A stretch of DNA of 64,000 nt from Halosolutus halophilus (GCF_022869805.1 NZ_CP094974.1:2914001-2978000), one strand, 5' to 3'; counted from the stretch's first letter, positions 28,582 to 45,386 are shown. Program-made: numbers and translations. Notes: generated by a model from the sequence alone, not told the origin.

Positions 28582-29859
28582 ATGGAACTCCCCCTTGGGG
28601 ACGGGACGATCGATCCCCGACTGGATCGCTGTGACGTGACGATCGCCCGACCGGCGGGCGGCGAGACCGTCGACGTCCGGGCGGCAGCCGAACGGGCACT
28701 TGACGACCCGCTCGGCCCGCCGCTCGCCGATCGCGTCGATCCGGACGACGAGATCGCGATCGTCGTCACCGACGTCACGCGCAAAGCCCCGGACGACGTG
28801 TTACTGGACGTCTTGCTCGATCGACTGGCGGAGATCGGCGTCGCCCGCGAGCAGGTCAGGGTCGTGATCGGCCTGGGACTCCACCGGCCGATGACCGACG
28901 CGGAGATCGAGGCGATGCTCGGACCCCACGCCGATCTGGCGGTAAACCACGACCCCGAGTCGGTGGTCGAGGTTGGAACCGTCAGCGAGGCGCCACGCGC
29001 CTCGGAAGTGGCGAGCGGCGAAGCCGCGAGCGACGCCGACGTCCCCGTCGAGATCGGCGAATCGGTCGCGAACGCGGATTCGGTGCTCTCGACCGGGGTC
29101 GTCGAACCCCACCAGTACGCCGGCTTCAGCGGCGGCGCGAAGACCGTCGTCATCGGCGCGGGCAGCGAATCGCTGATCCGGTACACGCACGGCCCCGAGA
29201 TGCTGGCCCGCGACGGCGTTCGCCTCGGGCGTGTGGAGGGCAACCCGTTCCGGGAGACGGTCGACGAGGCGGGCGACCTCGCCGGCGTCGACCTCTCGCT
29301 CAACCTCACCCACGGCCCCGCGGGCGTGCTCGGCGTCCGCGCCGGCGACGGGCGACGGGTCGTGTCTGAACTCGCGTCGATCGCCCGCGACGCGCTGTCG
29401 GTCCCGATCGATCGCGAGTTCGACGCCGTCGTCTGCGGCGTCGGCGCGCCCAAGGACGCGAACCTCTACCAGGCGACGCGGGGCGCGACCTACGTCGCGC
29501 TGGGCGATCGGAACCCGCTCCGCGACGGCGGGCGACTGGTCGTTCCGGCCGCGCTTCCCGAAGGGGCCGGCGACGGGACGGGAGAGCGGCGGTTCGCCCG
29601 GCGACTGCGCGAGGCCGACGACGCCGAATCGCTGTACGAGACGATGCGGGAGGGGTACGAACCCGGCGCGCAACGAGCGTTCGTCGTGGCCCGCGTGCTC
29701 CGCGACCACGACCTCTACGTGACCAACAGCGACGCACCGGCGATCGTCGAGGCGTGTCTCATGCACGCCGCCGACGACGTGTCGGACGCGATCGAACCGG
29801 GCAGCGAGGTGCTCGTCGTGCCGGACGCGCTGAACACGCTGCTCGTCGACGCGAACTGA
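28582..29859 (+). CDS. larA: LarA-type nickel-pincer racemase/epimerase
   Basis: A 425-residue LarA (DUF2088) protein. The ligands that hold the nickel-pincer cofactor and act in catalysis in Lactobacillus LarA correspond to H101 (GLGLHRPMT), H177 (EPHQYAGFSGG), K187 (GGAKTVV) and H203 (YTHGPEM). Spacing H-to-K (10) and H-to-H (26) is exactly as in the reference. The first interval is 76 instead of 66, and the palindromic insert at residues about 134-151 falls in it. Substrate may be lactate or another 2-hydroxy acid. No LarB/C/E cofactor genes are adjacent. Confidence 0.88.
   Translation: MELPLGDGTIDPRLDRCDVTIARPAGGETVDVRAAAERALDDPLGPPLADRVDPDDEIAIVVTDVTRKAPDDVLLDVLLDRLAEIGVAREQVRVVIGLGLHRPMTDAEIEAMLGPHADLAVNHDPESVVEVGTVSEAPRASEVASGEAASDADVPVEIGESVANADSVLSTGVVEPHQYAGFSGGAKTVVIGAGSESLIRYTHGPEMLARDGVRLGRVEGNPFRETVDEAGDLAGVDLSLNLTHGPAGVLGVRAGDGRRVVSELASIARDALSVPIDREFDAVVCGVGAPKDANLYQATRGATYVALGDRNPLRDGGRLVVPAALPEGAGDGTGERRFARRLREADDAESLYETMREGYEPGAQRAFVVARVLRDHDLYVTNSDAPAIVEACLMHAADDVSDAIEPGSEVLVVPDALNTLLVDAN
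28986..29027. repeat. In-frame double-hairpin palindromic insert in larA
   Basis: Hairpin 1 has 8-bp arms CGAGGCGC (28986-28993) and GCGCCTCG (28997-29004) around CAC. Ten bases later, hairpin 2 has 5-bp arms GCGGC and GCCGC around GAA (29015-29027). It encodes SEAPRASEVASGEAASD, similar in pattern to the dna2 insert (S-E-x-x-R ... G-E). Confidence 0.65.
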
Positions 29860-33254: not shown

Positions 33255-34259
33255 TCAGGACGCGTCCGGAGCCAGCGCGTTCATCGTCGCGTCGATCTCG
33301 TCTTCGTCGGCACCGCGCGGGAAACTGACGGCGATCGCGTCGATTCCGTCGACGGCCGCGTACCGTTCGAGTCCCTCGCGAGCGGTCTCGGGGTCGCCCG
33401 CGGCACAGAGGTCGTCGAGCAGGTCGTCGCCGAGCAACGCGAGTGCGCGCTCGCGCTCGCCCTCCTGCCAGGCGTCGTGGATCTCTTCGGCGACGTCGTA
33501 TCCCTGCCGGACGAGTGCGTCGCGGTAGAACGTTCCCATCCCGCCGACGTAGAAGGCGACGTGCTGGCGCGCGAGGTCCCGAGCCCGATCGGCGTCGTCG
33601 AGCGCACAGCAGGTGACGCCGGCGGTGACGGTCACGTCGTCGGGATCGCGATCGGCGAGTTCGGCGCCGCGTTCGACGTCGTCGAGTCGCTCCGCGACGC
33701 CGTCGGGGGTGAGCATGATCCCGTGCCAGCCGTCGGCGAATCGACCGGCGAGTTCGACGGCCTTGGGACCCATCCCCGTGACCTCGATCGGCGGCGCGGG
33801 GTCGGGCGGGTCACAGCGGAGGCGGAACCCGGAGAGGTCGAAGTCGTCGCCGTCGTACTCGACGCGGCTACCCGAGAGCACCTGCCGGACGATCTCGACG
33901 GTCTCGCGGGTTCGCCTGAGCGGGTTGCCGTACGCCATCCCGTGCCAGTTCTCGACGACGACCGGACCGCTCGGGCCGAGACCGAGGCGGAATCGCCCGT
34001 CCGAGGCCTCCTGTAACGTCGCGGCCGTCTGGCCGAGCAGCGCCGGCGACCGGGAGTACGTGTTGAGGATGCTGGACCCGATCTCGATCGAGTCGGTCCG
34101 TTCGGCCATCGCCGTCAGGACGGTGACGGCGTCCCGACCCCACGTCTCGGGGAGCCACGCGCAGTCGTAGCCGCCCGCTTCGGCGCGCCGGGCGTAGTCG
34201 ACGAGCGAGTCGACCGTCGGCTGGGCCGCGACCGGGAGGTGGACGTCTCGATCGGTCAT
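33255..34259 (-). CDS. LLM-class (F420-type) oxidoreductase
   Basis: A 334-residue luciferase-like TIM-barrel protein. Family marks are an N-terminal barrel strand pair (AGGYDCAWLPETWGRDAVTV), GSSILNTYSRSPALLGQTAA and RFRLGLGPSGPVVVENWHG. This matches the haloarchaeal F420-dependent group (NP1902A type), so F420 is the likely cofactor by family. ATG 34259 overlaps the SDR stop by four bases (ATGA), so SDR and LLM proteins are made together, probably acting on the same or consecutive intermediates. Confidence 0.85.
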   Translation of the reverse strand: MTDRDVHLPVAAQPTVDSLVDYARRAEAGGYDCAWLPETWGRDAVTVLTAMAERTDSIEIGSSILNTYSRSPALLGQTAATLQEASDGRFRLGLGPSGPVVVENWHGMAYGNPLRRTRETVEIVRQVLSGSRVEYDGDDFDLSGFRLRCDPPDPAPPIEVTGMGPKAVELAGRFADGWHGIMLTPDGVAERLDDVERGAELADRDPDDVTVTAGVTCCALDDADRARDLARQHVAFYVGGMGTFYRDALVRQGYDVAEEIHDAWQEGERERALALLGDDLLDDLCAAGDPETAREGLERYAAVDGIDAIAVSFPRGADEDEIDATMNALAPDAS

Positions 34260-35032
34260 ACCTCCGGGGACTCCTCGATCCGGGGCACGCCCTGTGCAGT
34301 GATCGTCTCGCCGACGATGTACGAGGAGGCCGGACTCGCGAGGAACTGCGCCAGGTCGGCGATCTCCTCGACGGTGCCCATCCGGCGCTCGACCTCGGCC
34401 CGCTCGACCTCGTCGGCCGAGATGCCCATCTGGCTCTCGACGCCCTCGGTGGCGACGAACCCGGGCGCGATGCAGTTGACGCGGACGCCATCCGAGGCCC
34501 ACTCGTAGGAGAGCGTCGTCGTGAGGTTGACGATGGCCGCCTTGGCCGCCCCGTAGTGGCTCATGTACGGCGAGCCCTGCGTGCCGGCGACGCTCGCGAA
34601 GTTGATCACGATGCCGCCGTCCGCTTTGAGGTGGTCCGCGGCGGCCTGGGTACAGTTGTACGTGCCGTGGAGGTTGATGTCGACGATCGTCTTCCAGCCG
34701 TTCTCCGAGATGTCGTCGAAGTTGGCCATGAACGAGGCGCCGGCGTTGTTCACCAGCACGTCGAGGCCGCCGAACTCCTCGACGGTCGCCTCGACGAGCG
34801 CGTCGACCGCCTCGCGATCGGTCACGTCGCACTCGATCGCGAGCGCCTCCCCGGGACGGTCGCTCTCGGTGATCCGATCGGCGACGGGATCGACGTTCTC
34901 CTGTTCGCGCGAGCAGATGACGACGTCGACGCCGTCCGCGGCGAATCCCTCGGCGATCCCTTCTCCGATGCCGCTCGATGCGCCGGTCACGATGGCGACG
35001 TCGCCGTCGACGCCGAACTGGGCCGTACTCAC
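34256..35032 (-). CDS. SDR-family oxidoreductase
   Basis: A 258-residue short-chain dehydrogenase. Cofactor loop TGASSGIGEGIA, NNAG (LVNNAGASF), catalytic Ser in FASVAGTQGS, then Y-x3-K (YGAAK), all canonical. Loop SREQ after the second strand fits NADP(H) preference (inference). Start is GTG at 35032. It is upstream of and overlaps the LLM gene. A shared promoter element (AGCTAACAATGGTAAC) lies 31-46 bp upstream. In the Pseudomonas lva pathway an SDR also accompanies the kinase-dehydrogenase pair. Confidence 0.9.
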   Translation of the reverse strand: MSTAQFGVDGDVAIVTGASSGIGEGIAEGFAADGVDVVICSREQENVDPVADRITESDRPGEALAIECDVTDREAVDALVEATVEEFGGLDVLVNNAGASFMANFDDISENGWKTIVDINLHGTYNCTQAAADHLKADGGIVINFASVAGTQGSPYMSHYGAAKAAIVNLTTTLSYEWASDGVRVNCIAPGFVATEGVESQMGISADEVERAEVERRMGTVEEIADLAQFLASPASSYIVGETITAQGVPRIEESPEV

Positions 35033-35235: not shown

Positions 35236-36420
35236 ATGACAGCAGACAATCCCGAGTACGGACCGGACAGACAGGCGGAGGTGTATCGTCGCGGCATGCT
35301 CGAGGGCGAGTCCCCCGAGTTCCCCGTCTCCTACGAGGATCTCGAGGAGCGCGCCCGCGAGGAACTCGACGAGGAAGCGTTCGCGTACGTCGCGGGCGGT
35401 GCGGGCTCAGAGTCGACCGTCGAGGCCAACGACAGGGCCTTCGACGAGTGGCAGATCGTCCCCCGGATACTGCGGGACGTCTCCGAGCGCGACCTGGGGA
35501 TCGAACTCTTCGGTCAGGAAGTCCCAGCGCCAGTCCTGCTCGCCCCGATCGGCGTCCAGTCGATCCTCCACGACGAGGCGGAACTGGCCGTCGCGCGCGC
35601 TGCCAGCGACCTCGACGTACCGATGATCTGTAGCTCCGTCTCGTCCTACACGTTGGAGGAGGTCGCGGACGAACTCGGCGACGGGCCCGACTGGTTCCAG
35701 CTCTACTGGAGCGCCGATCGGGACGTCGCCGCGAGCTTCCTCGAACGCGCGGAGGAGGCCGGCTACGACGCGATCGTCGTCACCCTCGACACGCCGAAGA
35801 TGGGGTGGCGCGAGCGCGACATCGAACTCGCTTACCTCCCCTTCCTCGCGGGCGAAGGCATCAGGAACTACTTCGAGGACGAGGCCTTCCGCGATCGGCT
35901 CGAGACCGACGATCCGTGGGCCGACCCCGAGGCCTCGCTGGAGTCGTTCATCGACTGCTTCGGCGACGCCTCGCTCACCTGGGACGACCTCGAATTCCTC
36001 CGCGAGCACACGGACCTGTCGATCGTCCTCAAGGGCGTGCTCCACCCCGAAGACGCCCGGAAGGCGGTCGAGCACGGGATGGACGGCGTCGTCGTCTCGA
36101 ACCACGGCGGGCGGCAGGTCGACGGCGCGATCCCGGCGCTCGAAGCGCTGCCGGAGGTCGTCGACGAGATCGGCGACGACGCCACCGTGCTGTTCGACAG
36201 CGGCATCCGCCGCGGGAGCGACGTCTTCCGCGCGGTCGCGCTCGGTGCGGATGCCGTGTTGCTCGGCCGGCCGTACGCGTACGGACTCGGCATCGGCGGC
36301 GAAGACGGCGTCCGGGCGGTCCTCGAGAACCTGCTCGCCGATCTCGACCTCACCGTCGGCCTCGCGGGCCGTGCGAGCGTCGACGAGGTCGATCGATCGA
36401 CGATCCGGAGGGGGGACTGA
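35236..36420 (+). CDS. FMN-dependent alpha-hydroxyacid oxidase/dehydrogenase
   Basis: A 394-residue FMN barrel of the L-lactate oxidase/glycolate oxidase family. FMN loop APIGVQSILHDEAEL, catalytic His-Gly-Gly-Arg in SNHGGRQVDG, and the phosphate site DSGIRRGSDVFRA with LLGRPYAYG. It oxidises a 2-hydroxy acid to a 2-oxo acid; the substrate may be lactate or a longer hydroxyacid. The gene is divergent from the SDR and shares its stop with the start of the HAD gene (TGATG), so those two form an operon. Confidence 0.9.
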   Translation: MTADNPEYGPDRQAEVYRRGMLEGESPEFPVSYEDLEERAREELDEEAFAYVAGGAGSESTVEANDRAFDEWQIVPRILRDVSERDLGIELFGQEVPAPVLLAPIGVQSILHDEAELAVARAASDLDVPMICSSVSSYTLEEVADELGDGPDWFQLYWSADRDVAASFLERAEEAGYDAIVVTLDTPKMGWRERDIELAYLPFLAGEGIRNYFEDEAFRDRLETDDPWADPEASLESFIDCFGDASLTWDDLEFLREHTDLSIVLKGVLHPEDARKAVEHGMDGVVVSNHGGRQVDGAIPALEALPEVVDEIGDDATVLFDSGIRRGSDVFRAVALGADAVLLGRPYAYGLGIGGEDGVRAVLENLLADLDLTVGLAGRASVDEVDRSTIRRGD

Positions 36421-37172
36421 TGGCCGACGGCGGGGTCGATAGCCGGGTTCGGCCGCCGGACCCGCCGGAGCGTCCCGACGACTGGGAGGCCGTCTTCTGG
36501 GACATCGGCGGCGTCATCCTCGAACTCGAATCCGTCCAGGCCGCACACGTCGACTTCGTCGCCGACCTGCTCGAACGCCACGACGTCGGCCGGACCGTCG
36601 AGGACGCGATCGAGACGTGGCGCACGACCGTCGGCGAGTACTTCCGCGAGCGCGACGGGACCGAGTTCCGGCCCGCCCGCGAGGGCTACCACCGGGGAAT
36701 CGAGGCCATCGTCGGCGAGGAAGTGCCGATGGACGAGTGGAAACCGCGCTTCCGGGAGGCCGTTCTGGCGTCGATCGATCCCGTTCCCGGCGCACCGGAG
36801 ACGATCGAGCGCCTCGCGGACCGGGACCTCCACGTCGGGGTCATCAGCGACGTCGACGAGGCGGAGGGCACGGAGATGCTCGGCCACTTCGGCGTCCGTC
36901 AGCACTTCGACTCGATCACCACCTCCGAGGCGGTCGGCCGCACCAAACCCCACCCCGCGATGTTCGAGACCGCCCTCGAGACGGCCGGCGTCGCGCCCGA
37001 GCGATCCCTGATGATTGGCGACCGGTACGACCACGACGTGCGAGGGGCGGCCGAGATGGGCATGCACGGCGTCGCGTTCGGGGCCGAGGACGGTCCCGCC
37101 GTCTCCTACCGGATCGAGTCTCCAGAGGAAGTACTCGCGATCGTCGACGGGGAGCGCGATCGAGCGGAGTAA
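36420..37172 (+). CDS. HAD-superfamily hydrolase
   Basis: A 250-residue HAD phosphatase-like protein. Motif 1 is FWDIGGVIL: the nucleophile Asp is present but the usual second Asp is Gly, as in several subfamily IA members. Motif 2 is VISDVD, motif 3 is GRTKPHP (Lys), and motif 4 is MIGDRYDHDV. Start overlaps the oxidase stop (TGATG). A phosphatase acting on a phosphoester made in this island, e.g. phosphoglycolate-like, is possible, but loss of the second Asp leaves catalysis unclear. Confidence 0.8.
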   Translation: MADGGVDSRVRPPDPPERPDDWEAVFWDIGGVILELESVQAAHVDFVADLLERHDVGRTVEDAIETWRTTVGEYFRERDGTEFRPAREGYHRGIEAIVGEEVPMDEWKPRFREAVLASIDPVPGAPETIERLADRDLHVGVISDVDEAEGTEMLGHFGVRQHFDSITTSEAVGRTKPHPAMFETALETAGVAPERSLMIGDRYDHDVRGAAEMGMHGVAFGAEDGPAVSYRIESPEEVLAIVDGERDRAE

Positions 37173-37670: not shown

Positions 37671-38885
37671 CTAGCCGCGGAACCGCGTCACGGGGTCGAG
37701 TTCGCTCTCGTCGACGTCCTCGAAGGCGTTGCGGGCGATCACGCGCTTGTGGACCTCGTCGGCCCCGTCGACGATCCGGAACGCGCGGACGTTCTCGTAG
37801 AAGTCGGCCAGCGGCAGGTCTTTGCCGATCCCGTTGCCGCCACAGCACTGGATCGAACGATCGATCGCGTCCTGGACGACGTTCGCGGTGAACACCTTCG
37901 CCATCGAGACCGGGACGCGCGCCTCGTTCCCCCCCGTGATCTCGCGGGCCGCGTGGCGAACCATCGTCCGGGCGGCGTGCAACTGGGTCTCCGCCTCCGC
38001 GACGTCGTAGCGCAGGCTCTGCTTCTCGGAGAGCGCGCTTCCGAAGCCTTCCCGCTCGTTCATGTAGGCCTTCGCGACCTCGAGCGATCGCTTCGCCATC
38101 CCGGAGAAACGCATACAGTGGGTGAGCCGTGCGGGACCGAGGCGCTTCTGTGCGATCGCGAAGCCGGCGTTCTCGGCGCCGAGCAGGTTCTCCTCGGGGA
38201 CGCGGACGTCGTCGTAGATGATCTCGGCGTGACTCGCGCCACGGAACGCCCCGCCGACGTGGGGAATGTCGCGCTCGAATTCGACGCCGTCGGCGTCGCT
38301 CGGGACGAGGAAGATCGAACACCCCTGGTACGGGTGGGCGTCACGGTCCGTGCGGGCCATCACGAGCAACACGTCCGCCTCGCTGCCCTGCGTCGTCCAC
38401 CACTTGTGGCCGTCGATGACCCACTCGTCGCCGTCCTTCTCGGCGGTGGTCTCGATCATCTTCGGGTCCGAACCACCGCCCTGCATCGGCTCGGTCATCG
38501 AGAACCCCGAATGGATCTCCGCCTCGACCAGCGGATCGAGCCACCGTTCTTTCTGCTCCTCGGTGCCGGCCATCTCGAGGGTGTGCATGTTCCCCTCGTC
38601 GGGCGCGTCGACGCGCAAGGCCAGCGGGCCGAGCAGACTCCGGCCGGCCTCCTCGAACGCCGGCAGGACGTCGCGGAACTCGAGGCCGAGTCCCCCGTGT
38701 TCCGCCGGGATCTGGGGCGCGTAGAGGTCCCGCTCGCGTGCCTTCTCGCGCAGGTCCTCGATCACGTCGTCCGGGACGGGGCCGTCACCGAGCCACTCCC
38801 GTTCGACCGGGATCACCTCGTCGTCGACGAACTCGCGGACGTCGTCGGCTAGCTCGCGGGCTCGATCGCTGTCGTGGTACTCCAT
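37671..38885 (-). CDS. Acyl-CoA dehydrogenase, ACAD10/11 (LvaC)-like
   Basis: A 404-residue acyl-CoA dehydrogenase. FAD motifs FSMTEP (substrate/FAD loop) and WWTTQGSEAD are present. The C-terminal region IQCCGGNGIG ... VDGADEVHKR carries Asp in the ADGPDEVH-like motif of ACAD10/11 instead of the usual catalytic Glu of YEGT. ACAD11 and LvaC use a phosphorylated 4-hydroxyacyl-CoA and eliminate the phosphate. The gene is divergent from the kinase at 39049, which has the matching N-terminal half of ACAD11. Start ATG 38885. The proposed role follows from this pairing. Confidence 0.9.
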   Translation of the reverse strand: MEYHDSDRARELADDVREFVDDEVIPVEREWLGDGPVPDDVIEDLREKARERDLYAPQIPAEHGGLGLEFRDVLPAFEEAGRSLLGPLALRVDAPDEGNMHTLEMAGTEEQKERWLDPLVEAEIHSGFSMTEPMQGGGSDPKMIETTAEKDGDEWVIDGHKWWTTQGSEADVLLVMARTDRDAHPYQGCSIFLVPSDADGVEFERDIPHVGGAFRGASHAEIIYDDVRVPEENLLGAENAGFAIAQKRLGPARLTHCMRFSGMAKRSLEVAKAYMNEREGFGSALSEKQSLRYDVAEAETQLHAARTMVRHAAREITGGNEARVPVSMAKVFTANVVQDAIDRSIQCCGGNGIGKDLPLADFYENVRAFRIVDGADEVHKRVIARNAFEDVDESELDPVTRFRG

Positions 38886-39048
38886 ACCGCCCTCTAGATA
38901 AACATTGTAAAATAAAGATTCCGGCGTAACTATTTTCGTTAATCAGGGAGGGGATAGTACCGTACACCACCATGTCGATCGCGAACCGTAACCCGACGGA
39001 TACGGCCGTACTGACCGACTATTCCGGCAAAATACGTACGCGCGCACC

Positions 39049-40149
39049 ATGAGCGAGGACTACTACGAGCGACTCGTCGACGAGGACGCACTGGCAGCCT
39101 ACCTCGAAGCGCACCTCGGCGACGTCGACCACTACGAGGTCGAACGCCACGAGGCAGGTCACTCGAACGAGACGCTGTACGTCACGTGGGGCGATCGGGA
39201 CCTGGTCATCCGGCGACCGCCGCCGGGCGAGACCGCCGACACCGCCCACGACGTCCTCCGGGAGTACCGGGTGACGAACGCGCTCGTCGACACCGACGTT
39301 CCCGTCCCCGAGCCGTTACTGGCCTGCGAGAACCACGATATCATCGGCAGCGACTTCTACGTGATGGAACGGCTCGAAGGCGACGTCCTCCGGCTGGAAG
39401 AACCCGATCGGTTCGCGGAGCCAGCGTCCCGCGAACGGATCGGCGACGAACTCGTCGACACGCTGGCGTCGATCCACGACCTCGACTACGAGGCCGTCGG
39501 TCTCGGCGAGTTCGGGTATCCCGAGGGGTACACCGAACGACAGGTCGAACGCTGGGGACAACAGCTCATGTGGGCCTTCGACGTGACCGTCGAGGAGCGC
39601 GAGGTACCGGACCTCTACGAGGTCGGCTCGTGGCTCCAGGAGAACTGTCCCGAGGAACACCCGCACACGCTCGTCCACGGCGATTACAAGCTGGACAACG
39701 TGATGTACGCCACGGGATCCGACGGCTCCCGGGACGATCGATCGGGCGACGCCCGCGAGTCGCCGGAATTGATCGGCGTCTTCGACTGGGAGATGGCCAC
39801 CCTCGGGGATCCCCGCGCCGACCTCGGCTGGATGCTGTCCTACTGGCGCGATGCGAAAGACCCCGAGCCGTCGGTGCCGGAACTCACCGCGACGTTCATG
39901 GAGCGGGAGGGATACCCGACCCGCCGCGAACTGGTCGATCGCTGGGAGGCTGGGACGGGCTACGAGTTCGAACACGAGCGGTTCTACCGGGCGCTCGCGG
40001 TCTACAAGCTCGCGGCGCTCGGGGAGATGTTCTTCCGGCGCTACCTCGAGGGCAACAGCGACGATCCGATGTATCCGAAGATGGAGGATCGGGTCCCCGC
40101 GCTCGCGGAACGAGCGCGACGGATCGTCGAGGGCGACGAACCGCTGTAG
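39049..40149 (+). CDS. APH-type phosphotransferase, ACAD10/11 kinase-like
   Basis: A 366-residue aminoglycoside-phosphotransferase-fold kinase. The catalytic loop is VHGDYKLDNVM near residue 208. The metal-binding FDWEMATLGDPRADLGW is near 245; both match the kinase half of ACAD10/11 rather than drug-resistance kinases. A disordered acidic insert (about 225-240) separates them. In ACAD11 and LvaA this domain phosphorylates the 4-hydroxyl of an acyl-CoA. The gene is divergent from the ACAD11-like dehydrogenase and upstream of the beta-oxidation fusion. Start ATG 39049. Confidence 0.9.
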   Translation: MSEDYYERLVDEDALAAYLEAHLGDVDHYEVERHEAGHSNETLYVTWGDRDLVIRRPPPGETADTAHDVLREYRVTNALVDTDVPVPEPLLACENHDIIGSDFYVMERLEGDVLRLEEPDRFAEPASRERIGDELVDTLASIHDLDYEAVGLGEFGYPEGYTERQVERWGQQLMWAFDVTVEEREVPDLYEVGSWLQENCPEEHPHTLVHGDYKLDNVMYATGSDGSRDDRSGDARESPELIGVFDWEMATLGDPRADLGWMLSYWRDAKDPEPSVPELTATFMEREGYPTRRELVDRWEAGTGYEFEHERFYRALAVYKLAALGEMFFRRYLEGNSDDPMYPKMEDRVPALAERARRIVEGDEPL

Positions 40150-40285: not shown

Positions 40286-40309
40286 ACGATACCGGACGAC
40301 GTGTCGACC

Positions 40310-42268
40310 ATGTCATACGAAACCATCGATCGCGTCGCGGTGCTGGGCGCGGGGAACATGGGGCACGGCATCACCGAAGTGGCCGCGATGGCCGGCTACG
40401 ACGTCACGATGCGGGACATCGAGGACGAGTTGATCGAAGAGGGCTACGAGGGGATCGCCTGGAGCCTCGAGAAACTCGAGGAGAAGGACCGACTCGACGA
40501 ACCGGCCGAGGAGATCCTCGATCGGATCGACACGACGACCGACCTGGAGACGGCCGTCGAAGGCGCGGACCTCGTCGTCGAGGCCGCGCCCGAGAACCTG
40601 GACCTGAAACACGACATCTTCTCGGACCTCGAGAAGTTCACGGACGAAGACACGCTCCTCGCGACCAACACCTCGAGCCTGCCGATCACGGACATCGCGG
40701 AGGCCGTCGACACCCCCGAGCGCGTACTCGGCCTGCACTTCTTCAACCCGCCGGTGAAGATGGACCTCGTCGAGGTCATCTACGGCGAGGAGACCGCGGA
40801 CGAGGTCGCAGAAGCCGGCTACGACTGGGTCGAGTCGATCGACAAGACGCCGATCTACGTCCGCAAGGACGTCCGCGGCTTCGTCGTGAACACGATCGTC
40901 GGCCCGTTCGGCGGCGAACCCGCCTGGATGGTCTCGGAGGGCGAGGCCACGATCCGACAGGCCGACGCCGCGATGGTCCACCAGCGTGGCTACCCGATGG
41001 GACCGTTCGAACTCGCCGATATGACCGGGATCGACATCGGCTACCACGTCCGCAAGGAGGCCGGCGACGACGTCCCGCCGATCGTCGAGGAGAAAGTCGA
41101 GAACGAGGAACTGGGTCGGAAGACCGGGACGGGGTACTACGTGTACGAGGATGGTGACGGTCCCGACTACGAACCCGGCGACGGAGAGGGCTTCGACACG
41201 CTCCAGGTCGAGGCGCGGATGGTCAACCGCGCCGCGTATCTGGTCGGCGAGGGCGTCGCCACCCCCGACGCCGTCGACACCGGCGTCCAGTTGGGCCTCG
41301 GATTTCCCGAAGGAATCTGCCGTCGCGGGGACAAGATCGGCCTCGACACCGTCCTCGAGAAACTCGAATCCCTCCACGAAGAGACCGGCCACGATCGGTT
41401 CGAACCCCATCCCTACCTCGAGGAACTCGTTGCGGAGGGCGAGACCGGCGAGGACGCCGGCGAGGGGTTCTACGAGTACGACGACGGCGACGGCGGCCTC
41501 GACGGCTACCACCACCTGAACGCCGCGATCGAGGACCGCGTGCTCCGGGTCGAACTCGATCGGCCTTCCCGGATGAACGCGCTTTCGGCCGACCTGCTCT
41601 CGGAGATCGACGACCTGTTCTCGTCGGTCGACACCGACGAGATCCGCTGTGCGACGATCGAGGGGGCCGGCGATCGCGCGTTCAGCGCCGGCGCGGACAT
41701 CACCGGCTTCGGTTCGCTGGACCCGACGGACGCGATGCGCGTCACGCCCGCGTTCGAGACGGTCCACGACTTCCCGCGGCCGGTCGTGGCGAAGATCGAC
41801 GGCTACTGCCTCGGTGCCGGCCTCGAACTTGCGCTATCCTGTGATCTGCGGCTCGCGACCGAACGCTCCTCGTTCGGATCCCCCGAGATCGGCCTCGGGC
41901 TGATCCCCGGCGGCGGCGGCACCCAGCGCCTGATGCGCGTGCTCGGGGAGACCCGCGCCAAAGAACTGGTCTTCCGCGGCAACCACATCGACGCCGATCG
42001 AGCCGAGAACTGGGGGCTGATCAACCGGGCGGTCGATCGCGACGACTTCGACGAAGTCGTCGACGAGTTCGTGGACGACCTGCGCAACGGCCCGCCGATC
42101 GGGCTCGAGGTCGCGAAGAAGGTGATGAACGAGGGCGAGGACGCCAGCCTCGAGGCGGCGCTGGCGCTGGAGAGCCAGGGCTTCGGCCTCCTGATCGGCA
42201 CCGACGACGTGATGGAGGGGACCGCCGCGTTCGCCGAGGATCGCGAACCGGAGTTCGAGGGGAACTGA
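40310..42268 (+). CDS. 3-hydroxyacyl-CoA dehydrogenase/enoyl-CoA hydratase fusion
   Basis: A 652-residue bifunctional beta-oxidation enzyme. Residues about 1-390 are the NAD-dependent dehydrogenase: GAGNMGHGITEVA (NAD loop), HFFNPPVKMDLVEV (catalytic His region) and two C-terminal helical repeats. From about residue 400 a crotonase domain follows: RAFSAGADITGF, GAGLELALSCDLRL and SFGSPEIGLGLIPGGGGTQRL, with both catalytic Glu. The order (dehydrogenase first) differs from mitochondrial trifunctional alpha-subunit (hydratase first) and is common in haloarchaea. Start ATG 40310; a GTG nine bases upstream is possible. Followed by maoC after 1 base. Confidence 0.95.
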   Translation: MSYETIDRVAVLGAGNMGHGITEVAAMAGYDVTMRDIEDELIEEGYEGIAWSLEKLEEKDRLDEPAEEILDRIDTTTDLETAVEGADLVVEAAPENLDLKHDIFSDLEKFTDEDTLLATNTSSLPITDIAEAVDTPERVLGLHFFNPPVKMDLVEVIYGEETADEVAEAGYDWVESIDKTPIYVRKDVRGFVVNTIVGPFGGEPAWMVSEGEATIRQADAAMVHQRGYPMGPFELADMTGIDIGYHVRKEAGDDVPPIVEEKVENEELGRKTGTGYYVYEDGDGPDYEPGDGEGFDTLQVEARMVNRAAYLVGEGVATPDAVDTGVQLGLGFPEGICRRGDKIGLDTVLEKLESLHEETGHDRFEPHPYLEELVAEGETGEDAGEGFYEYDDGDGGLDGYHHLNAAIEDRVLRVELDRPSRMNALSADLLSEIDDLFSSVDTDEIRCATIEGAGDRAFSAGADITGFGSLDPTDAMRVTPAFETVHDFPRPVVAKIDGYCLGAGLELALSCDLRLATERSSFGSPEIGLGLIPGGGGTQRLMRVLGETRAKELVFRGNHIDADRAENWGLINRAVDRDDFDEVVDEFVDDLRNGPPIGLEVAKKVMNEGEDASLEAALALESQGFGLLIGTDDVMEGTAAFAEDREPEFEGN

Positions 42269-42269
42269 G

Positions 42270-42719
42270 ATGGGCGACGAGACGCTGTCGTTCGACGACC
42301 TCGAGATCGGTCGCGAGGTCGTCACCCATTCGCGTACGATCACGGAGGCCGACGTGCGCAACTACGCGGGCGTTAGCGGCGACTTCAATCCCCTGCACCT
42401 GAGCGAGCGGTTCACCGCCGAACAGACGCCGTTCGGCGAACCGGTCGCACACGGGGCCCTGCTGTTCGGGATCACCAGCGGCCTGCTGTGGCAGCATCGC
42501 CACGAGCGGCCGGATACGATCGCGTTCTACGGCGTGGATAACCTGCGGTTCACGAACCCCGTCACGATGGGAACGACGGTGCATGCGGAGTCCGAGTTGA
42601 TCGACAAGGAGCCGCGCGACCATCCCGTGGCGAACGGCGTCGCCCGGTACGAGACGCGCCTCGTGACCGACGACGGCGAGGTCGCGCTCTCCTGTGAGCT
42701 GTTGACGCTGGTCCGCTAG
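42270..42719 (+). CDS. MaoC-family enoyl-CoA hydratase
   Basis: A 149-residue hot-dog-fold dehydratase. The catalytic Asp-His pair is in SGDFNPLH, followed by HGALLFGITSGLL (the long helix and the oxyanion loop). Such proteins hydrate trans-2-enoyl-CoA to (R)-3-hydroxyacyl-CoA. It lies 1 base after the fusion gene, clearly one operon, so both hydratase stereochemistries may be available. No membrane part. Confidence 0.92.
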   Translation: MGDETLSFDDLEIGREVVTHSRTITEADVRNYAGVSGDFNPLHLSERFTAEQTPFGEPVAHGALLFGITSGLLWQHRHERPDTIAFYGVDNLRFTNPVTMGTTVHAESELIDKEPRDHPVANGVARYETRLVTDDGEVALSCELLTLVR

Positions 42720-42793: not shown

Positions 42794-43321
42794 CTACTGT
42801 TCGCGTCCGTCTTCGGCCAGATCCTCGTAGATCCGGGGATCGGTCCGGAACTTGAGCACGTTGTGGACGGCCGAGTTCCGGATGTTCGCGATGACGTCGC
42901 CGTACTCCTTGTAGCAGTTGTGGATCCACTTCGAGACCTGCTGGCGGTCCCGGAACATCATCACCGTCTTCCACTGGTACTCGCCGTCCGAGAGGAAGAA
43001 AAAGAGGGTATGCTTGTCCTCGCGGATGTGTTCCATGGCATCGTACCAGCTCTCGGCGAAGTGCTCCGTATTGAATTTGAACTCGAACAGCGCGAAGATG
43101 TAGTACTCCTCGTTGGGGATGATCGCCTCCCGGAAGACGCCCTCGTCGCGCATTCGGCGGATCGATTCGCTGACCGTGACGTGCGAGACGTCGATGTCGT
43201 ACTCGGACTTCAGAACGCTCGTCAGTTCCCGGGACGACAGCTGTGGATCCTCCGCGAGTTCACAGAGGATCGCGATGTCGCGTTCCTTGAAGTCCCAGTT
43301 GGGGGGCTCGTCGTCGCTCAT
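42794..43321 (-). CDS. Lrp/AsnC-like winged-helix regulator
   Basis: A 175-residue protein. The N-terminal winged helix is KERDIAILCELAEDPQLSSRE with recognition helix SHVTVSESIRRMRDEG. A C-terminal region (EYYIFALFEFKFNTEHF; KHTLFFFLSDGEYQWKTVMM) may sense a ligand. Its site inside the catabolic island makes it a candidate for binding the shared promoter element (inference). Convergent with maoC and 30 bp from the hydrolase stop. No known target. Confidence 0.8.
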   Translation of the reverse strand: MSDDEPPNWDFKERDIAILCELAEDPQLSSRELTSVLKSEYDIDVSHVTVSESIRRMRDEGVFREAIIPNEEYYIFALFEFKFNTEHFAESWYDAMEHIREDKHTLFFFLSDGEYQWKTVMMFRDRQQVSKWIHNCYKEYGDVIANIRNSAVHNVLKFRTDPRIYEDLAEDGREQ

Positions 43322-43350: not shown

Positions 43351-44250
43351 TTACGTGTTCGGTTCGGACAGGAGCGACCGGAGCCGATCGGCGTACGCGG
43401 CCGATCGATCCTCGGGCACCCAGTGGTAGGCCTCCGACAGCGGTTCGATCCGGCTCTCCCGGATATCGTCGGCCAGCCGCTCGGCGTACGCGATCGGTTG
43501 CATCACGTCGTCTTCACCCCATAGCAACAGCGTCTCGGCCGCGATCGATCCGTAGTCGATCTCGGTCGTGTGATTCGTGTTCGTCGCGACGGCGTTCCGG
43601 ACGAGCGAGCGGTGCCCCTCGTCGGACAGCCACGGGGCTTTCATTCCCTCGACGAAGTCGGGGTCGGCCTCGCCGTAGGCACCCTCGACGAACGCCGAGT
43701 CGAGTCGCGATTCGAGTTCCGATCGGTCCAGTTCGACTGTGTCGGGCAGCCCCAGATTCGAGACGAACTCGACGGGCCAAGAGTCGTAACAGACGGCGTT
43801 CGAGAGGACCAGGTGCTCGACCCTGTCGGGGTGGTGCGCCGCGAAACGGAGCGCGACCCCGCCGCCGATGTCGTGTGCGACCAGCGACACCGTCTCGACG
43901 TCGAGCGTCGCGAGGAGATCCTCGAGCATCACCTCCTGGGCGCGGATCGATCGATCGAAGCCGTCGTGCATCGACGAGTTGCCGTAGCCGATCAGGTCGG
44001 GTGCGATCGTCCGGCGGTTCTCCGCGATCGTCGGCACGACGTCCCGCCAGAGGAACGACCACGTCGGGATACCGTGGAGGAAGACGACGGGCGGTTCGTC
44101 GCCGCCAGCGTCCGCCTCGGTTCCACCGTCCGATTCGTTCCCGGCGTCCGCGTCCGGCCCGTCCTCGTGGTAGGCGATCTCCAGATCGTGTCCGTCGACC
44201 GTCACGCCCGCCGTCTTCTGCCGTTCGCTCCAGGTTTCGTGGTCCGTCAT
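43351..44250 (-). CDS. Alpha/beta hydrolase, dehalogenase/epoxide-hydrolase-like with Asp nucleophile
   Basis: A 299-residue alpha/beta hydrolase. The oxyanion loop is HGIPTWSFLW, the nucleophile elbow VAHDIGGGVAL has Asp instead of Ser, the acid is in LLWGEDDVM, and the base is His in EAYHWVPEDRS. Asp nucleophiles are typical of haloalkane/haloacetate dehalogenases and epoxide hydrolases. The halide-binding Trp next to the Asp in haloalkane dehalogenases is Ile here, so dehalogenation is uncertain. ATG 44250 overlaps the acyl-CoA dehydrogenase stop (ATGA). An acidic insert (about 30-50) is present. Confidence 0.85.
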   Translation of the reverse strand: MTDHETWSERQKTAGVTVDGHDLEIAYHEDGPDADAGNESDGGTEADAGGDEPPVVFLHGIPTWSFLWRDVVPTIAENRRTIAPDLIGYGNSSMHDGFDRSIRAQEVMLEDLLATLDVETVSLVAHDIGGGVALRFAAHHPDRVEHLVLSNAVCYDSWPVEFVSNLGLPDTVELDRSELESRLDSAFVEGAYGEADPDFVEGMKAPWLSDEGHRSLVRNAVATNTNHTTEIDYGSIAAETLLLWGEDDVMQPIAYAERLADDIRESRIEPLSEAYHWVPEDRSAAYADRLRSLLSEPNT

Positions 44251-45386
44251 AGGAGCTGATCCGCGATGATGTTCTTCTGAATTTCGCTCGTGCCCTCGTA
44301 GATTTTCGTGATGCGGGCGTCGCGGTAGTAGCGCTCGACGGGGTGGTCGGAGACGTACCCCGCACCGCCGTGGACCTGGATCGCCTCGTCGGCGACGTCG
44401 ACCGCGTGCTCGCTGGCGAACAGCTTCGCCATACTGGCGAACTTCGCGGCCAGCTGGTCGTCGCCCTCCATCGCGACGGTCGCAGCGCGATAGGTCAGCG
44501 ATCGGGCGGCCTCGACGTTGGTCGCCATCTCGGCCAGTTTGTGCTGGATCGCCTGGAACTCCGCGATCGGCTGGTCGAACTGCTCGCGCTCCTCGGCGTA
44601 CGCGAGCGCCTCGTCGAGGGCCGCCTGTGCGGTGCCGATCGCCTGTGCGGCCACGCTGACGCGGCCGGCGGCGAAGAAGTCCATCAGCTGGTAGAAGCCC
44701 GCGTTCTCGGTACCGATGACGTTCTCCGCAGGGACGCGGACGTCGTCGAGGATCAGTTCCGCGAGGTCCGACGCCCGGATGCCGAGTTTGTTGTCGATCT
44801 TCTCGGCGCTGAAGCCGTCGAGATCCGTCGGCACGAGGAAGGCGGTGATCCCCTCGTGGCCCGCGCCCGGGTCCGTCTTGGCCATCACGACGGCGACGTC
44901 GGCGATCGTTCCGTTCGTGATCCACATCTTGTTCCCGTTGAGGACGTACTCGTCACCATCCTGCTCTGCGCGGGTTTCCATCCCGGCGACGTTCGATCCG
45001 TGAGCGGGTTCGCTGATCGCGCTCGCACACGCCGCCTCACCGTCGGCGATCTTCGGGAGCCACTCTTCTTTCATCCACTCGTCGCCGAACCGCTCGATCA
45101 TCGTCGAGCCGAAGCCGCGGCTGCTGATCGCGCTCCCGATCCCGGGATCGGCGCGCCACAGTTCCTCCGTGACGACGACGCTCGACAGGAGGTCCATCCC
45201 CGCGCCGCCGTACTCGACGGGGATGCCGGTCGCGACCAGGTCCATCTCGGCCGCCTGCTGGACGAGATCGTGGGGATACTCGCGGTTCTCGTCGTGCTCG
45301 CGCGCGACCGGCTCGATCTCGTTCTCGCCGAACTCCCTGACGGTTCGGCGGATCGCCCGCTGTTCTTCCGATAACTGAAACGACAT
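44247..45386 (-). CDS. Acyl-CoA dehydrogenase (short/medium-chain type)
   Basis: A 379-residue acyl-CoA dehydrogenase. Motifs are CASAISEPAHGSN, KMWITNGTIAD and IQVHGGAGYVSDHPVERYYR. The catalytic base is the Glu of KIYEGTSEIQK, the usual short-chain arrangement and unlike the ACAD11-like gene at 37671. It does the first step of beta-oxidation on an acyl-CoA; electron acceptor (ETF) genes are not in view. Its stop overlaps the hydrolase start. An island element lies 45-59 bp upstream. Confidence 0.94.
   Translation of the reverse strand: MSFQLSEEQRAIRRTVREFGENEIEPVAREHDENREYPHDLVQQAAEMDLVATGIPVEYGGAGMDLLSSVVVTEELWRADPGIGSAISSRGFGSTMIERFGDEWMKEEWLPKIADGEAACASAISEPAHGSNVAGMETRAEQDGDEYVLNGNKMWITNGTIADVAVVMAKTDPGAGHEGITAFLVPTDLDGFSAEKIDNKLGIRASDLAELILDDVRVPAENVIGTENAGFYQLMDFFAAGRVSVAAQAIGTAQAALDEALAYAEEREQFDQPIAEFQAIQHKLAEMATNVEAARSLTYRAATVAMEGDDQLAAKFASMAKLFASEHAVDVADEAIQVHGGAGYVSDHPVERYYRDARITKIYEGTSEIQKNIIADQLL

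Follow-up and report, generated by a model that had tools for sequence, protein, structure and literature searches.

Catabolism of 4-hydroxy acids by phosphorylation and elimination is known from bacteria and mammals, in which the 4-hydroxyl group of the acyl-CoA is phosphorylated with ATP and the phosphate is then eliminated in an FAD-dependent, acceptor-independent reaction to give 2-enoyl-CoA (PMC12440821, PMC11342911). The human and mouse proteins ACAD10 and ACAD11 fuse the kinase and the acyl-CoA dehydrogenase (ACAD) in a single chain, and ACAD10 additionally contains a HAD domain that retains only the first Asp of its motif and, with negligible activity as a phosphatase, acts to restrain the kinase domain (PMC11342911). 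In the Pseudomonas lva operon, the kinase (LvaA), ACAD (LvaC), SDR (LvaD) and ligase (LvaE) are separate proteins, and lvaABCD homologues occur in Alpha-, Beta- and Gammaproteobacteria according to Rand et al., as summarized where PMC6692424 cites them. Hallmarks of the mouse ACAD11/LvaC type are a catalytic Asp (D753) that replaces Glu and the residues R626, H634 and R637 (HCMR), which hold the 4-phosphate; R631 is a general residue (Rashan et al. 2025, PMC12440821). A literature search with partial coverage returned no archaeal description of a kinase/ACAD hydroxyacyl-CoA pathway, and to that extent agrees with the original note, whose author knew of none for haloarchaea.

A kinase and acyl-CoA dehydrogenase pair in Halosolutus halophilus

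The window, by which we mean the whole 64,000-nucleotide stretch of Halosolutus halophilus DNA that was analysed (NZ_CP094974.1:2914001-2978000), contains an ACAD gene (37671-38885, minus strand, 404 aa) and an APH-type kinase gene (39049-40149, plus strand, 366 aa) lying back to back, with starts separated by a shared intergenic region of 163 bp (38886-39048). Pfam assigned three acyl-CoA dehydrogenase domains to the former (E = 5e-37, 3e-23 and 1e-18) and an APH domain to the latter (E = 7e-45). The translations contain VHGDYKLDN and FDWEMATLGDP in the kinase and DGADEVH in the ACAD, and both these motifs and the divergent arrangement had been noted from the DNA alone. The 163-bp gap presumably holds the promoters of both genes; within it, a rough TATA search gave no clear match and a sigma-70 promoter scan, based on a model unsuited to archaea, gave none.

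Directly downstream of the kinase lies a 3-hydroxyacyl-CoA dehydrogenase/enoyl-CoA hydratase (3HCDH-ECH) fusion (40301-42268, plus strand), followed by a MaoC-type enoyl-CoA hydratase (42270-42719, plus strand) and a winged-helix regulator (42794-43321, minus strand) with equivalents in the same place in the Haloferax mediterranei and Haladaptatus clusters; an alpha/beta hydrolase and then an ordinary ACAD on the minus strand follow within the window. On the ACAD side are genes for a HAD-family protein (36420-37172, plus strand, 250 aa), an FMN-dependent alpha-hydroxyacid oxidase (35236-36420, plus strand) whose last base overlaps the HAD start, an SDR oxidoreductase (34256-35032, minus strand) that is a candidate 4-oxoacyl-CoA reductase, and an LLM-class flavin oxidoreductase (33255-34241, minus strand). 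Pfam hits and ORF positions thus confirm the SDR, beta-oxidation fusion, MaoC and oxidase genes named earlier as neighbours, a list from which the HAD gene between the oxidase and the ACAD was absent.

The ACAD carries the complete set of residues expected of the ACAD11/LvaC type. It reads KRLGPARLTHCMR and VDGADEVH in PDB-derived alignments, and alignment to ACAD11 gives R248, R253, H256-C-M-R259 and D373 as the equivalent positions, with D373 on the catalytic D753, as anticipated from the DGADEVH variant in place of the usual Glu motif. In a wider alignment, the seven diagnostic sites read RRHCMRD in 12/12 haloarchaeal pair ACADs examined and in 86/89 bacterial LvaC-like ACADs (two others have HAMR or HSMR, and one is without the Asp column), and the full signature was found in 0/25 ordinary ACADs, of which 13 came from the window's genome and 11 from bacteria, with human MCAD as the last. 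By both sequence and fold, the best PDB matches were 4hr3 and ACAD11 (8v3u, 2wbi), the fold search using an AF2 model with a pLDDT of 85.

Phylogeny placed the haloarchaeal, LvaC-like and ACAD11 proteins together and apart from ordinary acyl-CoA dehydrogenases, the opposite of the grouping named beforehand as a refutation, with support of 100/100 (SH-aLRT/UFBoot) in an IQ-TREE analysis of 30 sequences and 0.999 in a FastTree analysis of 72; a maximum-likelihood tree without support values had the same topology. Within this group the haloarchaeal ACADs form their own deep sister clade and are not nested among LvaC-like/ACAD11 proteins, being 69–87% identical to one another, about 36–43% to bacterial LvaC-like members and ~34–38% to ACAD10/11. 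Because the window ACAD is about as similar to ordinary ACADs of its own genome (36–38%) as to the LvaC-like clade, the argument is carried by motif and tree rather than by percent identity. In these comparisons, bacterial kinase–ACAD clusters and identities from the literature stood in for the LvaA and LvaC sequences of P. putida KT2440. We propose that the window ACAD is a candidate 4-phosphoacyl-CoA phosphate-eliminating flavoenzyme of the ACAD11/LvaC type.

For the kinase, the nearest PDB sequences were 9o56, 3dxp and the ACAD11 kinase (E = 1e-58 to 1e-41), with far weaker matches to 25-hydroxysteroid kinase (9fsg) and Rv3168 (3ats) at E = 1e-7. Its catalytic residues are D212, N217, R164, R71-E72 and D246, the first four of which align with the catalytic or CoA-contacting D220, N225, R176 and alpha-C Arg-Glu of ACAD11 and are conserved in haloarchaeal and bacterial kinases; the published label R86 falls one or two residues away in the numbering used here, so the match to it is limited to the Arg next to the alpha-C Glu. 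An AF2 model (pLDDT 87.5) matched the fold of 3dxp best, followed by 25-hydroxysteroid kinase (9fsg/9ft5) at ranks 2–3. In a kinase tree, which did not include LvaA and has weakly supported deep nodes, the haloarchaeal kinases form a single clade of the wider family, beside the ACAD11 sub-branch. With respect to the refuting condition named beforehand, a kinase outside the ACAD10/11 branch, the outcome is mixed: the closest sequences are ACAD11-type, and the weakly resolved tree shows a clade of its own rather than nesting. We propose the enzyme as a candidate 4-hydroxyacyl-CoA kinase.

Distribution and neighbourhoods of the pair

Across 242 haloarchaeal genomes of the class, strong kinase matches (E ≤ 1e-80) and strong ACAD matches (E ≤ 1e-100) were found in exactly the same 124, and no genome had either gene alone. 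The corresponding Fisher value of 3e-72 ignores relatedness and is thus read descriptively. By comparison, the ACAD encoded at 44247-45386 in the window, taken as a control, was present in 213 of the 242. Ten genera mix pair-positive and pair-negative species, indicating that joint gain or loss happened repeatedly, and the pairing is not due to chance. Sixty divergent pairs less than 1 kb apart were identified in 57 of the 124 genomes, with a median gap of 177 bp, and in another 14 pairs the two genes converge, in most cases from either side of the fusion gene. In 35 genomes, the fusion gene shares the strand of the kinase and lies no more than 1.5 kb downstream of it. The H. halophilus genome has a second divergent pair (C1:1299955-1302543, gap of 316 bp) whose kinase and ACAD are 64% and 70% identical to those of the window. 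Another SDR lies beside it, 88% identical to one found beside a kinase and a CoA ligase on a Haloterrigena alkaliphila plasmid.

Annotated clusters around the pair contain acyl-CoA ligase, SDR, thiolase, MaoC and 3HCDH genes. On Haloferax mediterranei pHME132 and in Haladaptatus salinisoli, the gene order is close to that of the window: ACAD, kinase, fusion and/or MaoC, then a regulator and a second ACAD. In strain DL31, a ligase and ACAD are divergent from the kinase, which is followed by an SDR; a Natrinema cluster comprises ligase, thiolase, iron alcohol dehydrogenase, ACAD, CaiB, kinase and fusion, and a Haloterrigena cluster comprises kinase, ligase and SDR. A ligase is thus adjacent in DL31 and Haloterrigena and near the pair in Natrinema, whereas no CoA ligase gene was found beside the window copy. 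Haloferax mediterranei and Halococcus encode, close to their pairs, SDRs with 73% identity to the window SDR, and an LLM-class flavin oxidoreductase also occurs near the pair in Natrinema, Halococcus and Halocatena.

The bacterial clusters (Burkholderia, Massilia, Ruegeria, Sphingobium, Streptomyces and Deinococcus) likewise place an ACAD with HCMR and Asp beside an APH-type kinase, often with an SDR, MaoC or 3HCDH gene, but those examined are collinear (Massilia, Ruegeria, Streptomyces and Sphingobium, some with an SDR or 3HCDH gene; in Deinococcus, SDRs lie between the two), and the haloarchaeal proteins fall outside their branches, the ACADs as a sister clade and the kinases as a clade of their own. 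Pseudomonas loci matched by the LvaC-like alignment showed no recognizable lva operon. Separately, no kinase lay within ~7 kb of the ACAD in 49 of the retrieved bacterial LvaC-like loci, more than half (L061, L063, L092-L098 and others); the kinase gene of these genomes may lie at another site, which is what the searched Pseudomonas genomes showed.

Relative to the Pseudomonas lva operon, the window shares separate kinase and ACAD genes and a nearby SDR but differs in that its genes are divergent rather than in an operon, its regulator is of another type and no LvaB-like protein was recognized at the locus; the lva cluster of P. citronellolis is also without LvaB (PMC6692424). LvaABCDE are accordingly not gathered in one cluster here: the LvaA- and LvaC-like genes diverge, the SDR is not assignable and no ligase stands beside them. 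The haloarchaeal version thus stands apart as a deep branch whose kinase and ACAD are split between divergent genes and whose HAD partner is found in no genome without the pair.

The HAD-family partner

HAD homologues (E ≤ 1e-30) were present in 87 genomes, and all 87 belong to the 124 that bear the pair. Among the 70 HAD genomes with a listed kinase on the same contig, the HAD gene immediately precedes the kinase, in the same orientation and within 1 kb, in at least 31, and lies within 10 kb in 63. Motif I reads VFWDIGGVI in 24/24 intact copies at hand, so that Gly (DxG) occupies the position of the second Asp, which in HAD enzymes is usually the general acid/base; motifs II–IV look intact. 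A HAD without the second Asp is shared with ACAD10, whose three parts (HAD, kinase and ACAD) correspond to three linked genes in haloarchaea, but the haloarchaeal HAD comes from another HAD-IA subfamily. It scored 35.7 bits against TIGR02247 (cut-off 125.4), the model that we take to cover the ACAD10 HAD domain (sEH-N/ACAD10-like subfamily), and its best NCBIfam model, TIGR02253, also remained below cut-off at 94.6 bits. On these scores, orthology to the ACAD10 HAD domain was rejected.

We propose that the HAD protein acts on the kinase step as a regulator or repair phosphatase, probably restraining the kinase or clearing stray phosphorylated intermediates. We also put forward, tentatively, the possibility that the three-part design of ACAD10 arose independently in haloarchaea in the form of linked genes: a kinase-controlling DxG HAD, a 4-hydroxyacyl-CoA kinase and a phosphate-eliminating ACAD. 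If so, HAD proteins whose active site is degenerate would form a recurring element of the pathway's regulation, and haloarchaea, actinobacteria and animals would have drawn them from different HAD subfamilies. Because a HAD protein accompanies the kinase in haloarchaea, the HAD domain of human ACAD10, which is so far unexplained, becomes testable in a simple organism.

A rather unlikely, though not far-fetched, alternative is that the HAD protein is a true phosphatase acting on 4-phosphoacyl-CoA or free 4-phosphoacids, giving a kinase/phosphatase cycle rather than elimination only. Its restriction to pair-bearing genomes, its frequent position directly upstream of the kinase and its intact-looking motifs II–IV would all suit such a role, as would the bacterial loci in which the kinase has a histidine phosphatase gene as its immediate neighbour (5/39 kinase loci: L055:5238-5948, L062:8933-9631, L070, L099 and L113); the P. 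citronellolis lva cluster also contains one (PMC6692424). With HADs and histidine phosphatases both found beside these genes, a phosphatase-fold partner recurs with the kinase. However, loss of the usual general acid/base in every intact copy argues against catalysis, as does the restraining, nearly inactive HAD domain of ACAD10 as an analogue. As a separate observation, an LvaC-like ACAD gene in each of three actinobacterial genomes is accompanied, at ~600 bp or less and in the opposite orientation, by a TIGR02247-like DxG HAD gene (L106:6189-6860, L100:6286-7029 and L111:369-1082), whose product is possibly a free-standing counterpart of the ACAD10 HAD domain.

Proposed pathway and substrate

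With gene anatomy, diagnostic residues, phylogeny and exact co-occurrence as observed in haloarchaea, we consider it likely that the pair is a split counterpart of ACAD10/11 (LvaA plus LvaC) that would convert 4-hydroxyacyl-CoA to 2-enoyl-CoA by phosphorylation and then elimination. The ACAD residues and tree, the kinase residues and the co-occurrence thereby lend sequence-level support to the predicted catabolic route. The chemistry itself has been shown only for bacterial and mammalian relatives, from which we infer activity, substrate range and the roles of the HAD protein and SDR at this locus. The kinase would phosphorylate the 4-hydroxyl group of 4-hydroxyacyl-CoA with ATP, and the flavoenzyme would remove the phosphate without net oxidation: D373 would take the alpha proton, FAD would transiently accept and return a hydride, and R248, H256 and R259 would hold the leaving phosphate. 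Two products had been predicted, and of these 2-enoyl-CoA, but not 3-enoyl-CoA, is what the characterized enzymes form (PMC12440821, PMC11342911). The ECH domain of the fusion, MaoC and 3-hydroxyacyl-CoA dehydrogenase would then carry the 2-enoyl-CoA through beta-oxidation.

A probable role of the SDR is to reduce 4-oxoacyl-CoA, derived for instance from levulinate, and so to provide the 4-hydroxyacyl-CoA. The earlier equation of the SDR with LvaD did not stand: at only 33–35% identity to SDRs of the bacterial clusters, it is not assignable from sequence, and it was rejected as an LvaD orthologue. Levulinate is a reasonable substrate given the nearby SDR and the reported growth of Haloferax mediterranei, which carries the cluster, on levulinic acid (0.097 per hour; PMC12455835), although the link between growth and the pair genes is correlative and concerns this one species. 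If the proposed pathway is correct, phosphorylation–elimination catabolism of 4-hydroxy acids would extend from bacteria and animals to archaea, and likely genes would be identified through which haloarchaea use levulinate and acids of the gamma-lactone type, compounds that matter for PHBV bioplastic production in Haloferax mediterranei. The haloarchaeal pair also adds an outgroup to ACAD10/11.

It is improbable, in our assessment, that the same phosphorylate-then-eliminate chemistry serves another hydroxyacyl-CoA (5-hydroxy, branched, or sterol- or isoprenoid-side-chain acids) in place of simple 4-hydroxy acids. As a deep, separate branch at ~36–43% identity to the characterized-type clade, the ACAD could have a changed substrate, and neighbourhoods are variable, some copies having genes of the acetone-carboxylase type or for CaiB, P450 or amidase close by. 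The kinase family also includes 25-hydroxysteroid kinase, likewise an APH-type enzyme that activates a hydroxyl group and a high-ranking fold match, but that protein is distant in sequence, far more so than the ACAD11-type kinases, and is paired with other chemistry; moreover, the haloarchaeal ACAD retains all of the residues that bind the 4-phosphate. Finally, annotation as 'acyl-CoA dehydrogenase' and 'phosphotransferase family protein', together with the similar identity to ordinary ACADs of the same genome, would fit an ordinary dehydrogenase in incidental proximity to an unrelated (aminoglycoside-type) phosphotransferase, but this highly improbable reading is already contradicted by exact co-occurrence in 124 genomes even where the genes are unlinked, by the 100/100 split in the ACAD tree and by the catalytic Asp and HCMR motif of the ACAD, where ordinary enzymes have Glu and hydrophobic residues.

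Two further observations concern neighbouring or related genes. A LarA-type lactate racemase homologue (28582-29859) shares the window with the alpha-hydroxyacid oxidase (35236-36420), a 2-hydroxyacid theme that the 4-hydroxy pathway does not explain. A more distant haloarchaeal kinase type occurs on a Halorussus vallis plasmid (L067:4068-7074) and at a further locus (L068); the Halorussus vallis copy is transcribed divergently from the gene for a 594-aa ACAD that has the Glu motif of ordinary enzymes (IWEGPSN), and this is a different system.
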